The notes under the pieces are model-generated. The model was not told where the DNA came from. It did no database searches and worked only from the letters and a program-made list of their open reading frames with translations. A stretch of DNA of 64,000 nucleotides from Halorientalis sp. IM1011. Lineage in GTDB: Archaea > Halobacteriota > Halobacteria > Halobacteriales > Haloarculaceae. Location: the NCBI RefSeq assembly GCF_001989615.1, contig NZ_CP019068.1, positions 186,001 through 250,000 on the forward strand, given 5' to 3'. Every line of letters starts with the position of its first letter. Position 1 is the first letter of the stretch. Positions 15,237-25,788 of the stretch are shown here, piece after piece. Both the position numbers and the translations under genes were made by a program.

Positions 15237-15703
15237 GACACCATCGGTGACGACAGCTCCACTGATGTCGGCGTACCCGTGAATTCCGGGAGCGGCGTAG
15301 GTATCCTTGACGAATCCCCAAAGCTCGTCGAGCTGTCATTGGGTATCCTGATCGGCTGTCGATACAGGGCGTAGATGCCGATCTCAGACAACTTCTTGCG
15401 GGCGCCAGCTGACTTATAAATTACACCACCTTTCTGCGGAAGCGCAGGAAGAACTACCTTTTCACCCGTATTTTGAGAAGTACCCTACCAAAGAGTGCCG
15501 CAAATTGAGCCACACTCTGGTGTCTACTGATACAACGTAGTGGACTTCTGGAAATCAACGGGATCTGAAAAACTTGATAGACAATATTTGCTCATTAGCC
15601 TCTGAAAGGCATACCAAAACTGAAGTTAGGGGTACTAAACACAATTTTAGTGTGGAATTCTACTACCCAAACTTCTATATGGTGGTGGTGTGCCAAACAA
15701 ATC
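15237..15703. other. Intergenic region: decayed gene head and restriction-operon promoter
   Basis: The left third holds the eroded 5' part of the YdjM-like gene. The right part is AT-rich. It contains the partly self-complementary CTAAACACAATTTTAG at about 15634-15649 and a TATA-like TTCTATAT at about 15672-15679, about 25-30 bp before the proposed start of the restriction-operon regulator. That spacing fits a leaderless or near-leaderless haloarchaeal transcript. No other gene is visible. Confidence 0.5.
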
Positions 15704-16354
15704 ATGCGACTCACGGAGGCTCGTGAAGGGAAAACCAGAACCCAGGTCCTTGCGGCCATCGCAGACTTGCAACGGAACGATGGCCCGCCGATCCAGAAGG
15801 ACCTCGTGGAGAAGCTCCCGATGACGAAGGGTGCCGTCTCACAGAACTGCAGTCGACTCGTCGAGGAGTCATTACTGCGAGAACACGATGGCCGGTATCG
15901 CGTCGATACAGGCCGTCTCCTCGATGATTATCGAGAGCACTTCGAGGAATACCTGCGACGCGCACCACAGAGTGAGCTCTACGAGCAGGAGGTGTCAGAC
16001 ACCAACGAAACCCGCACGCGGACCAAGCGCTCAGCGACTGAGTACTTCGAAGCCGACCTCCTCGAAGACATCCTCCTCACGTCGCTCGTGAGCTCGCTCG
16101 GAAAGAACAACATCCAGACCCTCCGGGAGGTGTTCCTGTACACGGACGATGTGCTATATCACGTCGCCTACCGTGCTGTGAGCGCGGAAACCGACGTGCC
16201 AGCAGAACTGAAACCAATCCTCAAGCTGGCGGCGTGTCTGGACGCCACCCCCGACCTGGTAGAAGAACTCGCGAACAGACACGACCTCCACGCCGAACTC
16301 GCTGGCCAATCGCCGGCGACCGAGATCGCCAAACACGCCTACGGAGGAGCCTAA
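15704..16354 (+). CDS. Winged-helix regulator at the head of the type I R-M operon
   Basis: The frame is open from 15650, but I chose the ATG at 15704 (MRLTEAREGKTR) because the residues before it are Trp-rich and unlike a protein, and because a TATA-like site lies about 25 bp upstream. The resulting 216-residue protein has a MarR-like winged-helix domain (about 8-70: TQVLAAIADLQ, DLVEKLPMTKGAVSQNCSRL, HDGRYRVDT). A helical C-terminal domain follows with no recognised motif. It is 2 bp ahead of hsdM1, so it is co-transcribed. It probably controls restriction-modification expression by sensing promoter occupancy; this is inference. Confidence 0.75.
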   Translation: MRLTEAREGKTRTQVLAAIADLQRNDGPPIQKDLVEKLPMTKGAVSQNCSRLVEESLLREHDGRYRVDTGRLLDDYREHFEEYLRRAPQSELYEQEVSDTNETRTRTKRSATEYFEADLLEDILLTSLVSSLGKNNIQTLREVFLYTDDVLYHVAYRAVSAETDVPAELKPILKLAACLDATPDLVEELANRHDLHAELAGQSPATEIAKHAYGGA

Positions 16355-16356
16355 TT

Positions 16357-17862
16357 ATGTCAAAGATCACCTCGTATACTGACTCGATCACGCTGGAAGA
16401 GCTCGAAAATCACCTGTTCGAGTGTGCGGACATCATCCGCAACACCGTCGACAAGACCGACTACAAGGACTACATTCTCCCGATGGTCTTCTATAAGACG
16501 CTCAACGACACGTACGAAGACCAGCGAGAGGATGTCCTCGAGGAGTTCGGCGACGAGGAAATCGCCGACGACCCGAGTTTCTACGACTTCCCGATCCCCG
16601 AGGGCTACCAGTGGGCCGACCTCCTCGATACGAACAAGAACGTCGACGAGTTCCTGAACGAGGCATTCGAGGCGATCGAACGGGAGAACCCCGAGCTCCA
16701 GGACGCGTTCCGCGCCGACTACGTGAGCGCCGACGCGCTGGACGACGACCGCCTCAAGGATCTCGCCCACCATCTCGACACGTACAACCTGAGCGCCGAA
16801 CGCGTCCCCCCCGACACGCTCGGGGAGGCGTACATGGACCTCGTAAAGCATTTCGCCAGCGAGGAAGGGAAGGAGGGGGGCGAGTACTTCACCCCACCCA
16901 ACATCGTACAGATGATGGTTCGGCTTCTCTCACCCGTCGAGCCCGGGGACTCAATCCACGACCCGACGTGTGGCTCCGCGGGAATGCTCGTCGAGGCGGC
17001 GCGGTACTTCCGCGAGGAGCAGGGCGGCGACCCGACGAAGCTGACACTCACGGGCCAGGAGATGAACCCCGACATCGCCGCCATCGCGAAGATGAACCTA
17101 TTCATCCACCGGTACGAGGGAGAAATCGCCCGGGAGGACTCCCTTCGCAACCCGCAGTTCACGACGGGCAAGGGCCAGCTCCAGACGTTCGATTACGTGC
17201 TTGCCAACTTCCCGTTCTCGGCGGACTGGGCTAAGGACCACCTCCAAGACGACAAGTTCGGCCGGTTCGACTGGGCGGACAAGCTCCCACGTGCCGATCG
17301 GGGCGACTATGCCTTCATCATGCACATGGAGGAACAGCTCAACGAAACAGGGCAGGCGGCTATCGTCGTCCCCCACGGCGTGCTGTTCCGGAAGCACGAA
17401 CGGCGGTACCGGGAGCCGATGATAAAGCGGGACATTATCGAAGCGGTGGTCGGGCTTCCCGAGAACCTGTTCCAGAACAACTCGATTCCGTCGGCAGTCC
17501 TGGTACTCAACGAGGACAAGCCCGACAAGCGCGCGGACGAGATACAGTTCATCCACGCCGCCGACGAGGACTTCTATCGAGAGCTCTCTAACCAGAACGA
17601 GCTAACCGAGGACGGACTGGACCACATCGTCAAAAATTTCGACGAGTGGCGAACCGAAGAGCGGGTGAGTCGGACGGTCCCGCTGGAGGAGATTAGAGAA
17701 AACGACTACAACCTGAATATCGCGCTGTACGTTGATACGACCGAACCCGAAGATTACATCGATGTTAACAAGGAATTAGATGAGCTACGGAAGTTACAGG
17801 CCGAACGCGAAGAGATCGAGGCGAAGATGACCCAGCACATGGAGGCGCTGAACTATGAGTGA
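16357..17862 (+). CDS. hsdM: Type I restriction-modification DNA methyltransferase subunit M (first copy)
   Basis: The 501-residue protein starts at MSKITSYTDS, 2 bp after the regulator stop; the frame runs further upstream, but that part is a shadow of the regulator gene. It has the HsdM N-terminal helical domain (DYKDYILPMVFYKTLNDTY) and the N6-adenine methyltransferase core. SAM motif I is HDPTCGSAGML at about residue 201. Motif IV is NFPF at 284-287 instead of the usual NPPF/Y. A coiled-coil-like C-terminus (LDELRKLQAEREEIEAKM) probably docks to HsdS. It overlaps hsdS by 8 bp. A second, clearly paralogous M gene follows hsdS, which is unusual. Confidence 0.93.
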   Translation: MSKITSYTDSITLEELENHLFECADIIRNTVDKTDYKDYILPMVFYKTLNDTYEDQREDVLEEFGDEEIADDPSFYDFPIPEGYQWADLLDTNKNVDEFLNEAFEAIERENPELQDAFRADYVSADALDDDRLKDLAHHLDTYNLSAERVPPDTLGEAYMDLVKHFASEEGKEGGEYFTPPNIVQMMVRLLSPVEPGDSIHDPTCGSAGMLVEAARYFREEQGGDPTKLTLTGQEMNPDIAAIAKMNLFIHRYEGEIAREDSLRNPQFTTGKGQLQTFDYVLANFPFSADWAKDHLQDDKFGRFDWADKLPRADRGDYAFIMHMEEQLNETGQAAIVVPHGVLFRKHERRYREPMIKRDIIEAVVGLPENLFQNNSIPSAVLVLNEDKPDKRADEIQFIHAADEDFYRELSNQNELTEDGLDHIVKNFDEWRTEERVSRTVPLEEIRENDYNLNIALYVDTTEPEDYIDVNKELDELRKLQAEREEIEAKMTQHMEALNYE

Positions 17863-19282
17863 AGACTCCACGCTGGATGAGTTCGTGGAAGATCACGAAG
17901 GTACCTCAGACCACTCGATAAAGTCTGTGCCTTCCTCTGAAATTAAGTCGAGTCTCGATGAAACCGCAGTCGGGGAAATCCCGTCAGAATGGAAAGTTAC
18001 CCGACTTGGAGATATTGCAATCGAGCGAGAATATGGCTTATCCGAATCTGCGGAAGAGTATGACCCAGAGAAGCCACGGTACATACGAACCCAGGATTTC
18101 GACGACTTTGCAGGTCTAAAAAAAGACAGCAAGGCGAGCCTCTCCTGGGAGAAAGCTAAAGATGAGCTTCTGGAAGAGGGCGATATGTTATTTGCTCGTA
18201 GTGGATCAGTTGGAGCTTCTCTCGGTAAAATATATCTATACGATCCAAATCACGGTCCATGCTGTTATGGGGGATATTCCATTCGCCATCGACTCCAGAA
18301 AGAAGGTCTCAATCACCAATATATTGCCCAGTTTGCGCTGAGCGAGCGTTATTGGGATTGGATTCGTCGAAGAGCGAAAACAACCGCTCAGTCTAATATC
18401 AATACTGGCGAGTATGGATCTCTTCCGATCCCTGTTCCCCCACTCGAAGAGCAACGCAAAATCGCCAGCGTACTCTATACCGTCGATCAGGCTATTCAAC
18501 AGACTGGGGCGATAATTAAACAACTCGAAACGGTCCGCCAAGGGACAGAACAGGACGTGCTTTCGAGAGGCGTTTGCGAGAATGGTACACTTCGTTCGGA
18601 CGACGAAATCGAATATCGAAACAGTTGGGTCGGTGAAATTCCTCAAGACTGGGCAGTCAAACAGTACAGTGAGTTGATTTCAGACTCGTCAGTCGGTATC
18701 GTCGTCAAGCCCTCTCAATACTACGATGACAGTGGGAGGGTCCCAATCCTTCGGTCTAAAGACATCTCCCCCGACGGAATCGCGGATGGGGACTTCGAGT
18801 ATATGACTGAAGAATCAAACGCAGAAAATGAGAACAGTCAACTACGAGAAGGAGATGTAATTACAGTGCGATCTGGTGATCCCGGACTTTCCTGTGTTGT
18901 CTCCTCTGAGTTCGACGGAGCGAACTGCGCCGATTTACTCATATCTACACCCGGCCCAGATTTAGACTCCCATTATGCCGCTCTGTGGATCAATTCGTTC
19001 GCAGGAAGAAAGCAAATAAATAGATTTCAGGCTGGGTTAGCACAGAAGCACTTCAATCTCGGAGCTCTCAGAAAGCTTCAAGTCGGAGTGCCGTCGCTCG
19101 ATGAGCAGAAGCGGATTGTCGAAAAGGTATCATCAATATCAGAATCCATCGAACGCGAGAGAGAGTGCAAAAGACAGCTCCAATGCCTCAAACAGGGCCT
19201 GATGCAGGATCTCCTCTCGGGAAGAGTCCGCACCGCTGATCGCGACATCCACGTGCATCCAGAGGTGGAAGAACATGGATAG
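17855..19282 (+). CDS. hsdS: Type I restriction-modification specificity subunit S
   Basis: The 475-residue protein has two target-recognition halves. Each begins with an IPxxW motif (GEIPSEWKVTRLGDI at about 40; GEIPQDWAVKQYSEL at about 261) and ends with a conserved helix (PPLEEQRKIASVLYTVDQAI; PSLDEQKRIVEKVSSISESI). This is the classic HsdS layout for a bipartite recognition site. A Ser-rich head of 35 residues precedes the first domain. Its base composition is lower in GC than the flanking M and R genes, as often seen for exchanged S genes. It overlaps the upstream M gene by 8 bp and the downstream M gene by 8 bp. Confidence 0.92.
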   Translation: MSEDSTLDEFVEDHEGTSDHSIKSVPSSEIKSSLDETAVGEIPSEWKVTRLGDIAIEREYGLSESAEEYDPEKPRYIRTQDFDDFAGLKKDSKASLSWEKAKDELLEEGDMLFARSGSVGASLGKIYLYDPNHGPCCYGGYSIRHRLQKEGLNHQYIAQFALSERYWDWIRRRAKTTAQSNINTGEYGSLPIPVPPLEEQRKIASVLYTVDQAIQQTGAIIKQLETVRQGTEQDVLSRGVCENGTLRSDDEIEYRNSWVGEIPQDWAVKQYSELISDSSVGIVVKPSQYYDDSGRVPILRSKDISPDGIADGDFEYMTEESNAENENSQLREGDVITVRSGDPGLSCVVSSEFDGANCADLLISTPGPDLDSHYAALWINSFAGRKQINRFQAGLAQKHFNLGALRKLQVGVPSLDEQKRIVEKVSSISESIERERECKRQLQCLKQGLMQDLLSGRVRTADRDIHVHPEVEEHG

Positions 19283-20789
19283 TGGGCACCCACTCACGGA
19301 CGGCGGATCCGACGCTCTCTACGATGTCTTCGAGGACTGCCTCGACCAAATGGAGGACGACAGCGAGATCGATAAGACCGAGTACAGGGAATTTCTACTC
19401 CCACTAATCTTCTACAAATGCGCCAACGACACCTACTTGGACGAGTACGAGGAGGCGGTCGAGGAGTTCGGGGAGGACCTAGCAGACGACCCCGCGTTCT
19501 ACTGGATGCAAGTGCCCGACGGATACCTCTGGGAGGACCTGATGGCCACGAACAAGCGGGTTGACGAGGGTCTCAACGAGGCGATTGAGGCGTTCGAAGA
19601 GGCCAACAACGACCTCGGGATCTCCTTCGGGGTGGACTACCTCTCGTTCGACGCGGAGGATACTACACTCAAGAGTCTACTGCAGATGTTAGACACCGTC
19701 GACCTAAGCGTGAAGAGCGTCGACCACGACGCCGTGACTGAGGCGTACATGATGCTGGTGCGCCAGTTCGCCGAGGAGGAAGACCGGGACGCCGGTGAGT
19801 TCTACCAGCCCCCCAAGGTGATTGATATGGTCGTCCAGATGCTGGCCCCCTTCAGGAACGGCGAGTCCGTCTACGACCCGACTGCGGGCGCGGGCGACAT
19901 GCTCGTCGGCGTGGCCAGTCACTATCGAAACGCAGGCGGAGATCCGAACAAGCTGACCTTCGTCGGTCAAGAGTCAATAAAGGGGATGACAGAAGCGGCA
20001 GATCTCAATTTCCTACTTAACGATGTTGAGGCAGAAATTGAGGACGCGGATCCGTTAGACGAGCCGCGTAGAAGTGATGACGGCACCCTAGAAAAGTTCG
20101 ACTACGTTCTCACTAACTTCCCATACTCCGCAGACTGGAACAAGGACGAACTACAAGACGACCCCCGGTTCGGGCACGTCGACAAGGACCCCCGCACGGA
20201 CCGGGGCGACTACGCCTACATCCTGCACATGTACAGTAGTCTGGCCGAGGACGGGCAGATGGTTACTCTGGCACCGCAGGGTGTCCTCTTCCGGCAGAAC
20301 GAGTCACCGTTCCGAAAATTCATGGTGGAGCAGATGGACGTCATTGAGGCGGTAATCGGCCTCCCCGAGAAGTTGTTCGGCGAGGACACGGGTATCGCGC
20401 CCGCCATCCTAATTCTGAACAAGGACAAGCCTGCGGAGCGCGAGGACGAAGTGCTATTTCTCCACGCTGCACACGAGGACTTCTACCGGGAACTCGACAA
20501 CAAAAACCGGCTGGAACCAGATGGAGTTGACCGGACGGTCGAGATCTTTGAGGAGTGGCGGTCCGAGGAGCGGGTGTCTCGGGTGGTGGACACCGACGAG
20601 ATCGAGGAGAACGACTATAATCTCAACCTCGCACTCTACGTCGACACCACCGAACCCGAAGAGGAGATCGATACGGTGGCGGAGGCGAAGGAGTTGGCCA
20701 GACTGGAGGCCGAACTCTCGGAGATACGCAACCGGATGAAACACGATCTCCAGGAGCTGTATGGCGAGGGAGTAAACCAATATGAGTGA
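19275..20789 (+). CDS. Type I restriction-modification DNA methyltransferase subunit M (second copy)
   Basis: The 504-residue protein is paralogous to the first M subunit along its whole length (KTEYREFLLPLIFYKCANDTY; YDPTAGAGDML as SAM motif I; NFPY at 281-284 as motif IV; EERVSRVVDTDEIEENDYNLNLALYVDTTEPEE near the end). The two share many blocks but differ throughout, so this is an old duplication and not a recent copy. It overlaps hsdS by 8 bp and hsdR by 8 bp. Both copies keep SAM-binding motif I. A heteromeric M1-M2-S enzyme would be unusual, because ordinary type I methylases are M2S1 with identical M subunits. Confidence 0.92.
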   Translation: MDSGHPLTDGGSDALYDVFEDCLDQMEDDSEIDKTEYREFLLPLIFYKCANDTYLDEYEEAVEEFGEDLADDPAFYWMQVPDGYLWEDLMATNKRVDEGLNEAIEAFEEANNDLGISFGVDYLSFDAEDTTLKSLLQMLDTVDLSVKSVDHDAVTEAYMMLVRQFAEEEDRDAGEFYQPPKVIDMVVQMLAPFRNGESVYDPTAGAGDMLVGVASHYRNAGGDPNKLTFVGQESIKGMTEAADLNFLLNDVEAEIEDADPLDEPRRSDDGTLEKFDYVLTNFPYSADWNKDELQDDPRFGHVDKDPRTDRGDYAYILHMYSSLAEDGQMVTLAPQGVLFRQNESPFRKFMVEQMDVIEAVIGLPEKLFGEDTGIAPAILILNKDKPAEREDEVLFLHAAHEDFYRELDNKNRLEPDGVDRTVEIFEEWRSEERVSRVVDTDEIEENDYNLNLALYVDTTEPEEEIDTVAEAKELARLEAELSEIRNRMKHDLQELYGEGVNQYE

Positions 20790-23754
20790 CACCAGTCCAG
20801 AACCTGTCGAAACCCCCAGCGAAACCGGCGTCGAGATCAATGTCCTCCAGTGGCTCGATGAGATGGGCTGGGAGACGTACGGGAAAGACGGCAGCTACGG
20901 CGCGACCGTCTTAGACCAGCAGTACGACCGCGATCTCTCTGAGGTCGTCTACTGGGAGATCCTCAAAGAGCAGCTCATCGCGCTGAACGAGAAGATGGAC
21001 GAGAGGGAGGCCGACCGGTTTCTCAACTCGTTGCAGCGGGATCTACGGACCGAGAACCTCATCGCGGCCAACGAGAAGTTCACCAAACTCCTCAGAAACG
21101 GAAAGAAGCACACCTACGACGACGGCGAGACCGAATACGTCACCCTCGTCAAATTCGATGGCCTCGACGAAAACCGGTGGATAGCAGCCAACCAGTTCCG
21201 CGTCCATCGGGAGAAGGCGATCCGGCCCGACGTCGTCTGTTTCGTCAACGGCATCCCGCTCGTCGTCTGGGAACTCAAGTCGGCTACCCAGGGGAACACC
21301 TACCAGGACGCGATCACGGACCTCGTCTCGTATCAGGACGATGTGCCCCGGCTCTTCGTCCCGGTACTTTTCAACGTTGCTGCCGACGACCTCGAGTTCA
21401 GATACGGCTCTGTGAACGCGCCGGCAGAGCACTACTATCCCTGGCGGGATGACGACACGGATCTCGACAACGACCTCAAGGAAGCGGTCGTGGCCCTCTT
21501 CCAGAAGCAAGTGCTGGCGGACCTCCTCGACAGATACGTATTCTACGAGGAGGCCGCCGGCGGCGATCTCAAGATTGTGCCGCGATATATGCAGTACTAC
21601 GCGACCGAAGCGATTCTCGACCGCGTCGAGGACTCGGACGAAAACAACGGCCTTATCTGGCACACCCAGGGGAGCGGGAAGTCGTATACGATGGTCTTTG
21701 CCGCCTGGAACCTGTTAGAGCGTAGCTTCCTCGATAACCCGCAAGTGCTGCTCGTCGTCGACACCGACAAGCTCAGAACCCAGATGGAGAACACCCTCTC
21801 CAATATCGATTTCCCCCGGTTCGAGGTTGCGGAGAGCATGGATCACCTGCAGGGGCTACTCGAGGAGGGGAGCAGCAAACTCGTGCTCACCACGATCCAG
21901 ATGTTCGAGGATGTCGATGCCGAGGTTCAGACGAACGATGAAACTGTCGTGTTCGTCGACGAGGCCCACCGGTACATGGAGAAGGATCTTGGAATCAGCC
22001 TACACGCTGCTATTCCCAACGCCCAGCATTTCGGCTTCACCGGCACGCCCGTCCGAGAAGAGGAAAGGGACACATTCGACAACTACTCGCCAGGGGGCGA
22101 GGAGACGCTCCATCAGTATTCGATCAAAGACGGGATCGACGACGAAGTGGTCTTAGAAGTTCACTTCGATGTGAGACAACAGGAGTGGCAGATCGATGAA
22201 TCCTCGCTCGACGAAGAGTTTGAACGCTCTTTCGCGGATCTAGATGTTGAGGAAAAGAGCGAGATCATCCGCAAACACGTCACGCGCTCCGAACTCGCGG
22301 AGCTACGGCCGCGCGTCGAAAGCGTTGTCCTAGATATCGTTGAGCACTACGAGGAGAAAGTCGAGCCCAACGGCTGGAAAGCGATGGTCGTCACGCCCAC
22401 CCGTCGCGCCGCTGCGTTGTACGGCGAGGAGCTCCAGAAGCTCCGTGATCCCGAAGACGTCGAGGTCCTCGTAACCTCGCAGGGTGACGACGAGAAGCTC
22501 ATTCAGAAGTTCCACACGACGAAAGAGCAGCGGGAATCGATCGTCCAGCGGTTCAAGAACCCCGACGAATACGAGGACGATCCCAAGATCCTCGTCGTCT
22601 GTGATATGCTGCTCACGGGGTTCGACGCCCCGATTTTGAAGACGATGTATCTAGACCGGAATCTCAAGAATCACAACCTTCTCCAGGCGATCGCCCGCAC
22701 CAATCGGCCCGCCGACGGCAAGGTGAACGGCGAGATCGTCGATTACGCGGGGGTCTTCGCGAGCGGCAACATCGAGGACGCACTCGAGTACGACGCCGAA
22801 ACGCGCAACCACGCAGCGAAGGACGTCGACGAACTCCTCGACGACTTCGAGGAACTGCTCGCAGAGACGATGGCGATCTTCGAGGATGTCGAGAAGGTCG
22901 ACAGCCAAGAAGCAGTGAACCACGCCGTTGCGCTCGCGAACGAACACAGGGCGGAATTCGAAGACAGCTACGCCCGATTGCAGGACATGTACGAGTCGAT
23001 CGCCCCCGACAAACGGCTGGAGACACGGGGGCTGCGGGACCCGTACCAGTGGCTCAACCGGATCTACCTTGCCTACCGGCGGAGCCAGCGCGACCCTGAC
23101 CCCGAGGAGGACGTACGGGAGAAGACGCTGGAGATCATCGAAGAGAACGTCGATGTCGGCGAAATCAAGAACAATACGCCGATCTACAAGATCAGCGAAG
23201 AGCACCTCGAGAAGGTCCAGGACCTGGAGCCGAAGGCGAAGGCCACCGAGATCGCCCATGCCACGCAGGACCACCTGCAGGGCCGCCGAACCACGAACCC
23301 CCGGTACCAGCGCATCAGTCAGCGCGTCGAGCAGCTGGTGAACGATTGGCGGTCGGGTGATCTAGAAGCACCTGAGGTCGCAGAGGAACTCGAAGAAGCC
23401 GAGAAAGAGGCTCTCGCTGTTGGTGAGCAACGGGACGAACTCGACATGTCCGAGTCGGTGTTTGCTGTCTACTCCGCTCTCACAGACAGCTACGATGTCG
23501 AAGAGACCGAGGCTGCTGCGATTGCTGCGGACATTCTCGACGGCTTCGACGAGATTGATACCAGCTTCGAGGGCTGGCATATGAGCGATCGCGTCAGGAA
23601 GAAAATCCGTCAGACAGTGATTCGCACACTGGTGGGCGAGGAGCATGACCGAAAAGACCTCTACGACACAGAAGGTCTAGTCAGGGAGATTGTCGAATAC
23701 CTAATCCGCAACGAACAGGCGGAGTCCGACGAGTCTGCACCGATGGGAGGGTAA
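20782..23754 (+). CDS. hsdR: Type I restriction endonuclease subunit R
   Basis: The 990-residue protein has the HsdR order. An N-terminal PD-(D/E)XK nuclease has its active-site block at about 150-168 (RPDVVCFVNGIPLVVWELKS). An SF2 translocase follows with Walker A HTQGSGKSYT (about 294-303), DEAH box VFVDEAHRY (about 391), GFTGTP motif III (about 418) and motif VI ARTNRP (about 636). A long helical C-terminal domain binds M/S. Length is normal for the family. It overlaps the second M gene by 8 bp and is followed after 1 bp by the YgjP-like gene, so the restriction function looks intact and operonic. Confidence 0.94.
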   Translation: MSDTSPEPVETPSETGVEINVLQWLDEMGWETYGKDGSYGATVLDQQYDRDLSEVVYWEILKEQLIALNEKMDEREADRFLNSLQRDLRTENLIAANEKFTKLLRNGKKHTYDDGETEYVTLVKFDGLDENRWIAANQFRVHREKAIRPDVVCFVNGIPLVVWELKSATQGNTYQDAITDLVSYQDDVPRLFVPVLFNVAADDLEFRYGSVNAPAEHYYPWRDDDTDLDNDLKEAVVALFQKQVLADLLDRYVFYEEAAGGDLKIVPRYMQYYATEAILDRVEDSDENNGLIWHTQGSGKSYTMVFAAWNLLERSFLDNPQVLLVVDTDKLRTQMENTLSNIDFPRFEVAESMDHLQGLLEEGSSKLVLTTIQMFEDVDAEVQTNDETVVFVDEAHRYMEKDLGISLHAAIPNAQHFGFTGTPVREEERDTFDNYSPGGEETLHQYSIKDGIDDEVVLEVHFDVRQQEWQIDESSLDEEFERSFADLDVEEKSEIIRKHVTRSELAELRPRVESVVLDIVEHYEEKVEPNGWKAMVVTPTRRAAALYGEELQKLRDPEDVEVLVTSQGDDEKLIQKFHTTKEQRESIVQRFKNPDEYEDDPKILVVCDMLLTGFDAPILKTMYLDRNLKNHNLLQAIARTNRPADGKVNGEIVDYAGVFASGNIEDALEYDAETRNHAAKDVDELLDDFEELLAETMAIFEDVEKVDSQEAVNHAVALANEHRAEFEDSYARLQDMYESIAPDKRLETRGLRDPYQWLNRIYLAYRRSQRDPDPEEDVREKTLEIIEENVDVGEIKNNTPIYKISEEHLEKVQDLEPKAKATEIAHATQDHLQGRRTTNPRYQRISQRVEQLVNDWRSGDLEAPEVAEELEEAEKEALAVGEQRDELDMSESVFAVYSALTDSYDVEETEAAAIAADILDGFDEIDTSFEGWHMSDRVRKKIRQTVIRTLVGEEHDRKDLYDTEGLVREIVEYLIRNEQAESDESAPMGG

Positions 23755-23755
23755 C

Positions 23756-24487
23756 ATGGGTGTGGGCAATACGACGGGCACGGCCGAGATCGAGATCGCC
23801 GGTTCGGAAATCGAGTACCGTGTCGTCGAGAGCGCTGACGCTACACAGCCCAGGATCGACGTCGACATTCACGAGGTCAAAGTAGTCGTCCCGGAGAATG
23901 GTGCTGTCGATCCGCATGAATTTATTCGCGAGAATACCGATTGGATCGCTCGGAAATGGCGCAAGTACGACGAGTACCGTGACCGAGCCCCGGATAGGAC
24001 GTTTGAACCCGGTGAGACGTTCCCGTATCAAGGTGACGACCACACTTTTCGCGTCCGGGATGTGGATGAGCACGGAATCACCGACGATGAGATCGTTCTG
24101 GCCAAGCACGCCGTCAAGGAGTCATCCATCAAAGACGAGTTAGAGGCGCTCTTTCGAGAGCAGGCCCGGACGCTCTTCGAGGAAGTAGTAGAGGAGCACG
24201 CCGACGAAATGGGTGTCGAGTACGAAGGGCTGGCCGTACGGAACCAGCGTACTCGATGGGGAAGCTGCTCCCCAAAACAGAACCTGAGCTTCAATTGGCG
24301 ACTCATTATGGCGCCGCCAGAGATCGCAGAGTACGTCGTCGTACACGAACTCGCCCACCTACGGGAGCAGAATCACACCAACCGCTTCTGGCGTATCGTT
24401 CGCGAGCAGCTCCCGGATTACCGCGAACGGGCCAACTGGTTAGAAGAGCACAGTGTAGATCTCATCTTTACTGAGGACGATCTGTAG
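23756..24487 (+). CDS. YgjP/SprT-like (DUF45) metallopeptidase
   Basis: The 243-residue protein shows YgjP family features. The C-terminal block VVVHELAHLREQNHTNRFW contains the HEXXH zinc motif (residues about 199-203) with a further His downstream. NQRTRWGSCSPKQNLSFNWRLIMAP precedes it. These DUF45 proteins frequently sit directly after type I hsdR genes. Their substrate is unknown. The 1-bp spacing shows co-transcription with the R-M genes. A role in turnover or relief of restriction is possible but unproven. Confidence 0.9.
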   Translation: MGVGNTTGTAEIEIAGSEIEYRVVESADATQPRIDVDIHEVKVVVPENGAVDPHEFIRENTDWIARKWRKYDEYRDRAPDRTFEPGETFPYQGDDHTFRVRDVDEHGITDDEIVLAKHAVKESSIKDELEALFREQARTLFEEVVEEHADEMGVEYEGLAVRNQRTRWGSCSPKQNLSFNWRLIMAPPEIAEYVVVHELAHLREQNHTNRFWRIVREQLPDYRERANWLEEHSVDLIFTEDDL

Positions 24488-24519: not shown

Positions 24520-25051
24520 TTAGTCAAGACGGGAGGCCAGATGCTCGACCGGCCCTCGCGCTGTCGCTTCAGACATCGTTCCACCGATGATGATCTTTCC
24601 GCTGGAGAATACGAGGTGTGTGACATCAAGTTCTGGCGGTCGGTAGATCAGGGCAAGAAACTGTTCCGGTTCGTATTCAGTTTGCTCGAGCCCGAGTTTG
24701 AGTACCAATCGTTCCAAATCCAAGCTCCGATCAAACGTCTCCATGAAGACGGCCGTTCGTTGCTCAAAGGAGTAATCAGGAAGCTCCAGCCCAATTTCAT
24801 CCAGCAGGTCAAGTAACCAACTCTGTGCTGCCTCAAGATCTGCTTCGGTCTTTGCCCCTCTGATTTGGATAGTGCCAGTCCGATAGAACTGATACGCAGC
24901 GCCATCCGGATCAAGCCGGACAGTAACCATTCCAGACCGGTGAAATTTGCTGTGACATCATGGTCCACAGCCTCCTGTAAGCGTCTACGGACACATCGAG
25001 ATCAAGCTCACGACCGAGCGAGCCTGAGCCCATCGTACTAACAATCTCCAT
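24520..25051 (-). pseudogene. Frameshifted TATA-binding-protein (TBP) homologue
   Basis: The 3' part is an open frame (24520-24930, 136 residues) ending with a near-perfect second TBP repeat: YEPEQFLALIYRPPE, then HLVFSSGKIIIGG. It begins in the middle of the first repeat (GMVTVRLDPDGAAYQFYRTGTIQIRGAK). Upstream, the missing head is readable in other frames. MEIVSTMGSGSLGRELDLDVSVD starts at 25051, LQEAVDHDVTA follows in a second frame, and KFHRSGMVTV in the third. Two frameshifts therefore separate a TBP-type N-terminus from the remaining frame. I infer gene decay after transfer or duplication; an N-terminally shortened product could still be made from 24930. Confidence 0.75.
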
Positions 25052-25239: not shown

Positions 25240-25788
25240 TCAGACGACGGCTTGAATCCGTCCACGGAGATCGTTGACCGCTTCGGAGACAGCCTCAAGA
25301 TCGGTGAGCCCAGTACACAAGAGTTTCCCGCTCGCGAAGACGAGGATCACGTGGTCCGCCCCACGATACATCAGCGCTGGAAACTGCTCCGGCTGGTACT
25401 CGAGGGCGTCCATCCCTAGCTCGAGGGTGAGCAGTTCCAGCGGAATCGGCGAGCCGAGATCGCTCGTCGCCACGATATTACTGATTTCAGCCACCGGCAC
25501 GTACTCGAAGTCCAGCAGCTCACGCATGACTGCATTCACACAGTCGACCATCGTTTCGAAGTGTTCGATGGACCGACAGCCAGCGATTGAACAACGTCCC
25601 GTCCGATAGAAGGCAACATACGTGTCGTTGGGGGCAAAGCGCGTCTGTAACCAGTGGTTGTCGGCCGGTTCGTAGCTGACGTCCGTGATTTTGTCCCGCT
25701 CGTCGAACGTCTCAGCAAGCGCCGCGAGGTCGAGTTCCTGCTGATTGGTGATCATCCCGACGACGTTAGCGACCTCAAGCTCCGTCAC
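25240..25788 (-). CDS. Divergent TATA-binding protein (TBP) homologue
   Basis: The 182-residue protein has the two-repeat TBP layout at the usual length. Repeat 1 begins VANVVGMITNQQELDLAALAETF and includes TYVAFYRTGRCSIAGCRS. Repeat 2 begins ISNIVATSDLGSPIPLELLTLELG and includes YQPEQFPALMYRGADHVILVFASGKLLCTG. Repeat 2 is close to canonical TBP and repeat 1 is strongly diverged. DNA contact may therefore be asymmetric or altered. Haloarchaea often carry several TBPs, including accessory ones used by mobile or stress regulons. It lies beside a broken TBP relative and a restriction operon. It could direct alternative promoter use. Confidence 0.85.
   Translation of the reverse strand: MTELEVANVVGMITNQQELDLAALAETFDERDKITDVSYEPADNHWLQTRFAPNDTYVAFYRTGRCSIAGCRSIEHFETMVDCVNAVMRELLDFEYVPVAEISNIVATSDLGSPIPLELLTLELGMDALEYQPEQFPALMYRGADHVILVFASGKLLCTGLTDLEAVSEAVNDLRGRIQAVV

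Follow-up and report, generated by a model that had tools for sequence, protein, structure and literature searches.

The window analysed here, a stretch of 64,000 nucleotides from Halorientalis sp. IM1011, contains a type I restriction operon with two different M genes and one S gene, which raises the question of what the second M protein (M2) does and where it came from. In the canonical type I methylase (M2S1), one S carries two M subunits that are identical. Two-M type I enzymes are already known as an established kind from bacteria and methanogens. In enzymes of the PacII/NhaXI kind, M1 (NPPF, AGEF) makes m6A and M2 (NPPY, AAEF, conserved Arg29) makes m4C; crystals of the PacII M1M2S heterotrimer bound to DNA have been obtained, and Arg29 of its M2 enters the active site of the partner and coordinates both sites (PMC9613975). 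A methylome survey described the same two-M arrangement where one half-site holds G/C only, so that m6A cannot protect both halves, and the prior rationale for such enzymes is that the second M makes m4C in the half-site without adenine (PMC4752239).

Organization of the operon

The operon consisted of six open reading frames, all on the forward strand. The genes, and the parts of S discussed below, were located as follows:

15704-16354 (+), regulator, a MarR-like winged-helix protein, first gene of the operon (ORF with ATG start; Pfam)
16357-17862 (+), M1, HsdM_N and N6_Mtase (ORF; Pfam), with NFPF (motif IV) at 17206-17217
17855-19282 (+), S, specificity subunit with two TRDs (ORF; Pfam Methylase_S in two stretches)
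17975-18424 (+), TRD1 of S (aa 41-190)
18425-18589 (+), CR1 of S, M-binding helix region
18626-19069 (+), TRD2 of S (aa 258-405)
19070-19279 (+), CR2 of S
19275-20789 (+), M2, second HsdM, HsdM_N and N6_Mtase, with DPTAGAGDM (motif I) at 19875-19901 and NFPY (motif IV) at 20115-20126
20782-23754 (+), R, HsdR, with Pfam HSDR_N nuclease, SWI2/SNF2 motor, T1R_D3-like and T1RH-like_C
23756-24487 (+), YgjP-like metallopeptidase (ORF; Pfam)

HsdM, an HsdS with two TRDs and an HsdR with nuclease and SF2 motor are thus encoded together, as in a type I system. The regulator and M1 were separated by a 2-bp gap and R and YgjP by a 1-bp gap, while the remaining junctions were 8-bp overlaps: M1/S (ATGAGTGA), S/M2 (ATGGATAG) and M2/R (ATGAGTGA). 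M2 was therefore wedged between S and R by two overlaps in the manner of the family. The first-pass annotation had described a packed operon joined by 8-bp overlaps or 1-2-bp gaps, and the six reading frames and their junctions bear this out. Its statements that two different M genes accompany one S gene, and that M1 and M2 are paralogous along their length with motif I in both, also agreed with the Pfam and ORF data. M1 and M2 were 51% identical across 481 aa, their whole length, with motif I reading DPTCGSAGM in M1 and DPTAGAGDM in M2 and motif IV reading NFPF and NFPY, respectively. Only one S gene was found in the operon, and the reading frame of M2 was free of stops.

The MarR-like first gene, whose Pfam score lay slightly under the cut-off and for which an alternative GTG start at 15650 was also open, is likely to have a regulatory role. 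The GC content of S was 49% (GC3 48%) compared with 57-60% elsewhere in the operon, a pattern to be expected of specificity genes that have recently been exchanged. Among the papers searched, none linked YgjP to type I restriction. Immediately beyond the 3' end of the operon were two genes of the TATA-binding-protein family (Pfam TBP), at 24520-24930 (-) and 25240-25788 (-); the DNA of this stretch was still 89-95% identical to that of one other genome with the two-M operon (G105) and was not kept in the second (G024).

Distribution of the two-M operon

Orthologues of M2 were found in 3 of the 391 sampled Halobacteria (the window, G105 and G024), with 74-75% identity to the window M2, and the remaining matches in these genomes did not exceed about 52% and were M1-type or more distant HsdM proteins. 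By family, M2 occurred in 2 of 146 genomes of the family of the window (the window included) and in 1 of 28 of that of G024, and in none of the 125 and 170 genomes of two further families. Scans of IMG/VR with the M2 alignment and of genome contigs with M2 recovered no relative and no second-M orthologue, respectively. The first-pass annotation had called the arrangement unusual, which is right; unprecedented would be wrong in view of PacII and NhaXI (PMC9613975, PMC4752239).

The M-S-M-R order was looked for in other genomes and was present in two of the 390 others. Both G105 and G024 had the identical order regulator-M1-S-M2-R-YgjP, and the three genomes belong to different genera in two families. 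Since the six-gene order is repeated in two other genomes, chance and an assembly artefact are both excluded. Degraded M genes in homologous operons were also looked for. The orthologous two-M operons all carried an intact M2; a second M with a broken motif IV was seen in Salinibacter, in another operon of this family. The presence of an intact M2 in the same gene context in three genomes ruled out that it is degraded or there by chance.

About 25 other loci of the NFPF family were read, and each had one M. In most of them S ran straight into R, usually with the same 8-bp overlap, and YgjP followed R. The single-M operons of G050 (L048), G118 (L076) and G343 (L121) shared with the window the M1 family, R, YgjP, the 8-bp overlaps and the TRDs and CRs of S, and differed from it in lacking M2, S leading directly into R.

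Phylogenetic origin of M2

In the HsdM tree (70 proteins), the haloarchaeal NFPF/NFPY proteins formed one clade (31 rows, SH-aLRT 100) that included M2 on a long stem, whereas PacII M1 and M2 with their relatives (L084-L087, L091, L092) formed a separate clade. A single clade of window-type and PacII-type M2 was rejected by the AU test (p = 1.64e-8), indicating that the window pair is a second, separate invention of the two-M operon. Membership of the PacII family was ruled out by the tree and the AU test despite the similar motif and fold. M1 and M2 as one clade were not rejected (p = 0.26), and a position of M2 as outgroup of the F-type rows had a support of 89. The tree is thus compatible with M2 having split off either before or within the present M1 diversity. 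As part of the best explanation given below, and with the same tentativeness, M2 may have arisen by duplication inside the haloarchaeal NFPF HsdM family and then been fitted between S and R.

PacII-type two-M operons with adjacent M1 and M2 genes (L084-L087, L091, L092) were also seen in non-haloarchaeal genomes of the same phylum, and the two genes were likewise adjacent in Exiguobacterium (L111).

Conserved residues and predicted fold of M2

All F-type haloarchaeal M proteins, M1 included, had NFPF. M2 had NFPY in all three genomes and was the only protein of the family with this motif. The residues D201, G205, E233, D259, N281, P283 and the aromatic at 284 were conserved in all three M2 proteins. 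When 47 near-universal HsdM columns were compared, M2 had lost 8-10, against a median of 0 in other M proteins and 12-13 in two clearly degenerate M-like ORFs. Among the losses, the motif X Thr was replaced by Gln178, the Asn behind GQE by Ile235 and the His at 249 by Asn; the Arg29 column was lost as well, reading E/K/E in the three M2 proteins and Arg in M1 and nearly all other M proteins. Furthermore, the Gly after motif I was Asp208 in M2. At the AGEF/AAEF site M2 had AGEF, while M1 had GGEY in the window and GGEF in G105 and G024.

The AlphaFold model of M2, built with 38 homologue rows, had a mean pLDDT of 85.5 and contained the C-terminal helix, which in PacII binds S. Its best fold match was PacII M2 (TM 0.81). 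In a PDB sequence search M1 was closest to PacII M1 and M2 to PacII M2, the latter narrowly (238 vs 229 bits). The dN/dS of M2 between G105 and G024 was about 0.04, with saturated dS, indicating strong purifying selection on M2. M2 is thus an intact HsdM in which the vicinity of the SAM site has changed and for which activity is plausible; given the residue losses and the G-to-D change beside motif I, its catalysis may be weak.

The Tyr in motif IV does not mean m4C, because the HsdM of EcoR124, a classical m6A enzyme, has NPPY, and this residue was ruled out as proof of m4C. General convergence of M2 on PacII M2 was likewise dismissed, since the 11 changed columns common to both did not exceed chance (P = 0.13). 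One further change was identical in the two proteins, V to L at PacII M2 position 338.

Recognition domains of the S subunit

If M2 served to make m4C, one TRD should be of a kind unused by single-M systems. In the window, TRD1 shared 77% identity with its counterpart in the single-M operons of G236, G197 and G343, and TRD2 shared 89%, 82% and 78% with the TRD2 found in the single-M operons of G050, G118 and G225, respectively; the operons sharing these TRDs were read to confirm a single NFPF M, the G197 contig ending just past S. CR1 and CR2 were closest to those of the single-M S of L048 (77% and 76%). TRDs of the other two-M operons also had counterparts in single-M operons. TRD1 of G105 and G024 was 61-64% identical to that of L048, TRD2 of G024 was 68% identical to that of L062, and TRD2 of G105 was 56% identical to TRD1 of L061. 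In the PacII type, TRD1 (the m4C side) was 33-55% identical between Pseudomonas and most archaeal systems, with a differing TRD1 in L084, and TRD2 was 18-29% identical for most pairs. The nearest plasmid match to PacII TRD1 (41%) lay in another two-M operon, and weaker matches lay in single-M operons, in a small sample.

Since both TRDs of the window are common to single-M operons, a lone M can probably methylate both half-sites, and most likely both hold an adenine. The step from a shared TRD to the same methylated base is itself one that we infer. On this basis the shared TRDs argue against m4C as the reason for M2 and against a G/C-only half-site. The S subunit has no apparent sign of adaptation to two different M proteins, and M1-M1-S should be able to form. 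Elsewhere in the comparison set, a single-M operon (L078, 8963-9763) encoded a half-length S of 266 aa with one TRD, which suggests two half-S proteins per complex and a palindromic site.

Joint divergence of M2 and S

Among the three two-M operons the regulator proteins were 95.8-98.6% identical (95.8-97.2% for the window vs the other two) and the R proteins 94.6-98.4%, whereas S was only 32-58% and M2 74-86% identical. M2 evolves faster than M1 (75% vs 87% identity). At the DNA level, the identity of the window to the other two operons was mostly 35-58% in S and mostly 63-85% in M2; among the two-M operons it was 93-98% in the regulator and 83-99% in R. The DNA identity of regulator and R exceeded that of rpoB (86-87%), a sign that the operon was recently transferred between genera. 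The divergence stopped at the M2/R junction and, on the other side, faded gradually across the 3' end of M1. Where single-M pairs with similar R were compared, the divergent region around S stopped short of R. As S and M2 diverged jointly while the regulator and R stayed similar, M2 is tied to S, and would be part of the specificity module or evolve with it.

Comparison with other two-M loci

The operon resembled PacII and NhaXI in having two different HsdM proteins with one S and one R, in motif IV ending in Phe in M1 and in Tyr in M2, in the fold of M2 (TM 0.81) and in the best PDB matches of M1 and M2, both PacII subunits. In contrast, the gene order was M1-S-M2-R instead of M1-M2-S-R, and motif IV was NFPF/NFPY instead of NPPF/NPPY, the first Pro being Phe throughout the haloarchaeal family. 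Moreover, the window M2 had AGEF rather than AAEF and lacked Arg29, its clade was separate, and its operon used TRDs common to single-M systems. As a clean marker of M2, Arg29 was weakened by the methanogen PacII-type M1 proteins, which carry Arg too.

The hsd loci of Mycoplasma agalactiae contain two hsdM and several S genes and were likened by their authors to the recombining hsd loci of M. pulmonis (PMC9465063). Compared by description only, they share with the window two M genes per type I locus and differ in having several S genes. In Salinibacter ruber pSR56 (L116), an operon of the NFPF family had a second HsdM-like gene beside it (17295-18683), located after YgjP and, unlike M2, lacking motif IV. 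This gene kept motif I, read ADLPPPG at motif IV and was 32% identical to M2; it is probably inactive. HsdM-like ORFs of 644-670 aa, extended at the C-terminus, were found at L053 (5749-7761), L056 (2824-4758), L082 (9004-10938) and L117 (8959-10911). Several such ORFs adjoined haloarchaeal type I operons, and two had a broken motif IV (ADFPVS, SDFPIS). A second haloarchaeal family of type I M proteins had NPMW in motif IV, not NPPF/Y (L055, L057, L059-L063, L080, L081). In the literature, no measured methylome was found for the NFPF family, whose enzymes presumably make m6A.

Possible roles of M2

Our best explanation, held tentatively and at slightly less than an even chance, is a working type I operon that encodes an independently evolved M1-M2-S enzyme in which M2 most likely methylates adenine in its own half-site. 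M1 and M2 would each fill one of the two M positions on S, so that the methylase would be M1-M2-S and the restriction complex R2-M1-M2-S. M1 would methylate the adenine of one half-site and M2 would lie over the other, most likely also methylating adenine, perhaps with altered speed or order. With Arg29 kept only in M1, any coordination between M1 and M2 would be one-way. PacII M1M2S is proof that a heterotrimer of this kind can exist (PMC9613975). With an S of ordinary type, M1-M1-S is expected to form too, and M2 may be dispensable. The small number of M2 orthologues, three in all, also counts against this explanation.

The first-pass annotation had weighed a heterocomplex, each M serving its own half-site, against a non-methylating M. 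Both remain the leading readings, and what has been weakened is the form that requires M1 for one half-site and M2 for the other, because single-M operons use both half-site readers of S as well. A regulatory or catalytically impaired M2, somewhat unlikely in our estimate, is a serious rival to the M1-M2-S methylase. In this role it would sit in one M place, bound to S or to the DNA base, and slow or gate methylation, so that some of the enzyme would be M1-M2-S with one active site. The near-universal residues lost by M2, almost as many as in the degenerate M-like ORFs (8-10 vs 12-13), are consistent with impairment, above all the changes T to Q in motif X, G to D in motif I and N238 to I and the loss of Arg29. 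So are the single-M type of S, on which M1-M1-S should serve both half-sites, and the same-family Salinibacter operon whose second M has a broken motif IV. However, the N-x-P-aromatic, the motif I Asp and Gly, the motif II Glu and the motif III Asp are invariant in M2, which is also under strong purifying selection. It is rather unlikely that two non-equivalent M proteins sit on an ordinary m6A-type S with M2 holding its half-site without normal methylation and gating M1, so that marking would be asymmetric or delayed.

An independent duplication could also have produced a PacII-like system in which M1 makes m6A and M2 makes m4C in the other half-site. The F-to-Y change of PacII-M2 type in motif IV, which M2 alone has in its family, the identical V to L at position 338, and PacII M2 as closest fold and best solved sequence match all point in this direction, but both TRDs of the window are common to single-M operons while in most PacII-type systems TRD1 belongs to a conserved lineage of its own. 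The NPPY of the m6A-making EcoR124 M, the lack of AAEF and Arg29 in M2 and a changed-column overlap at chance level count against m4C as well, and we regard it as decidedly unlikely. A further reading is that M2 has no special role and is a redundant spare copy, retained for dosage or only in passing. Its rarity and its faster evolution than M1 would agree with this; its position and overlaps, the fixed substitutions that the three genomes share, the purifying selection on it there and the divergence coupled to S make it very improbable.

At this locus a second M has evolved independently, and the S that it accompanies has two half-site readers that are also used with a single M. If this is confirmed, the doubling of M would have a cause other than base chemistry, and the operon would provide a natural test of M-subunit coordination, in which M1/M2 can be set against single-M relatives with the same recognition domains.
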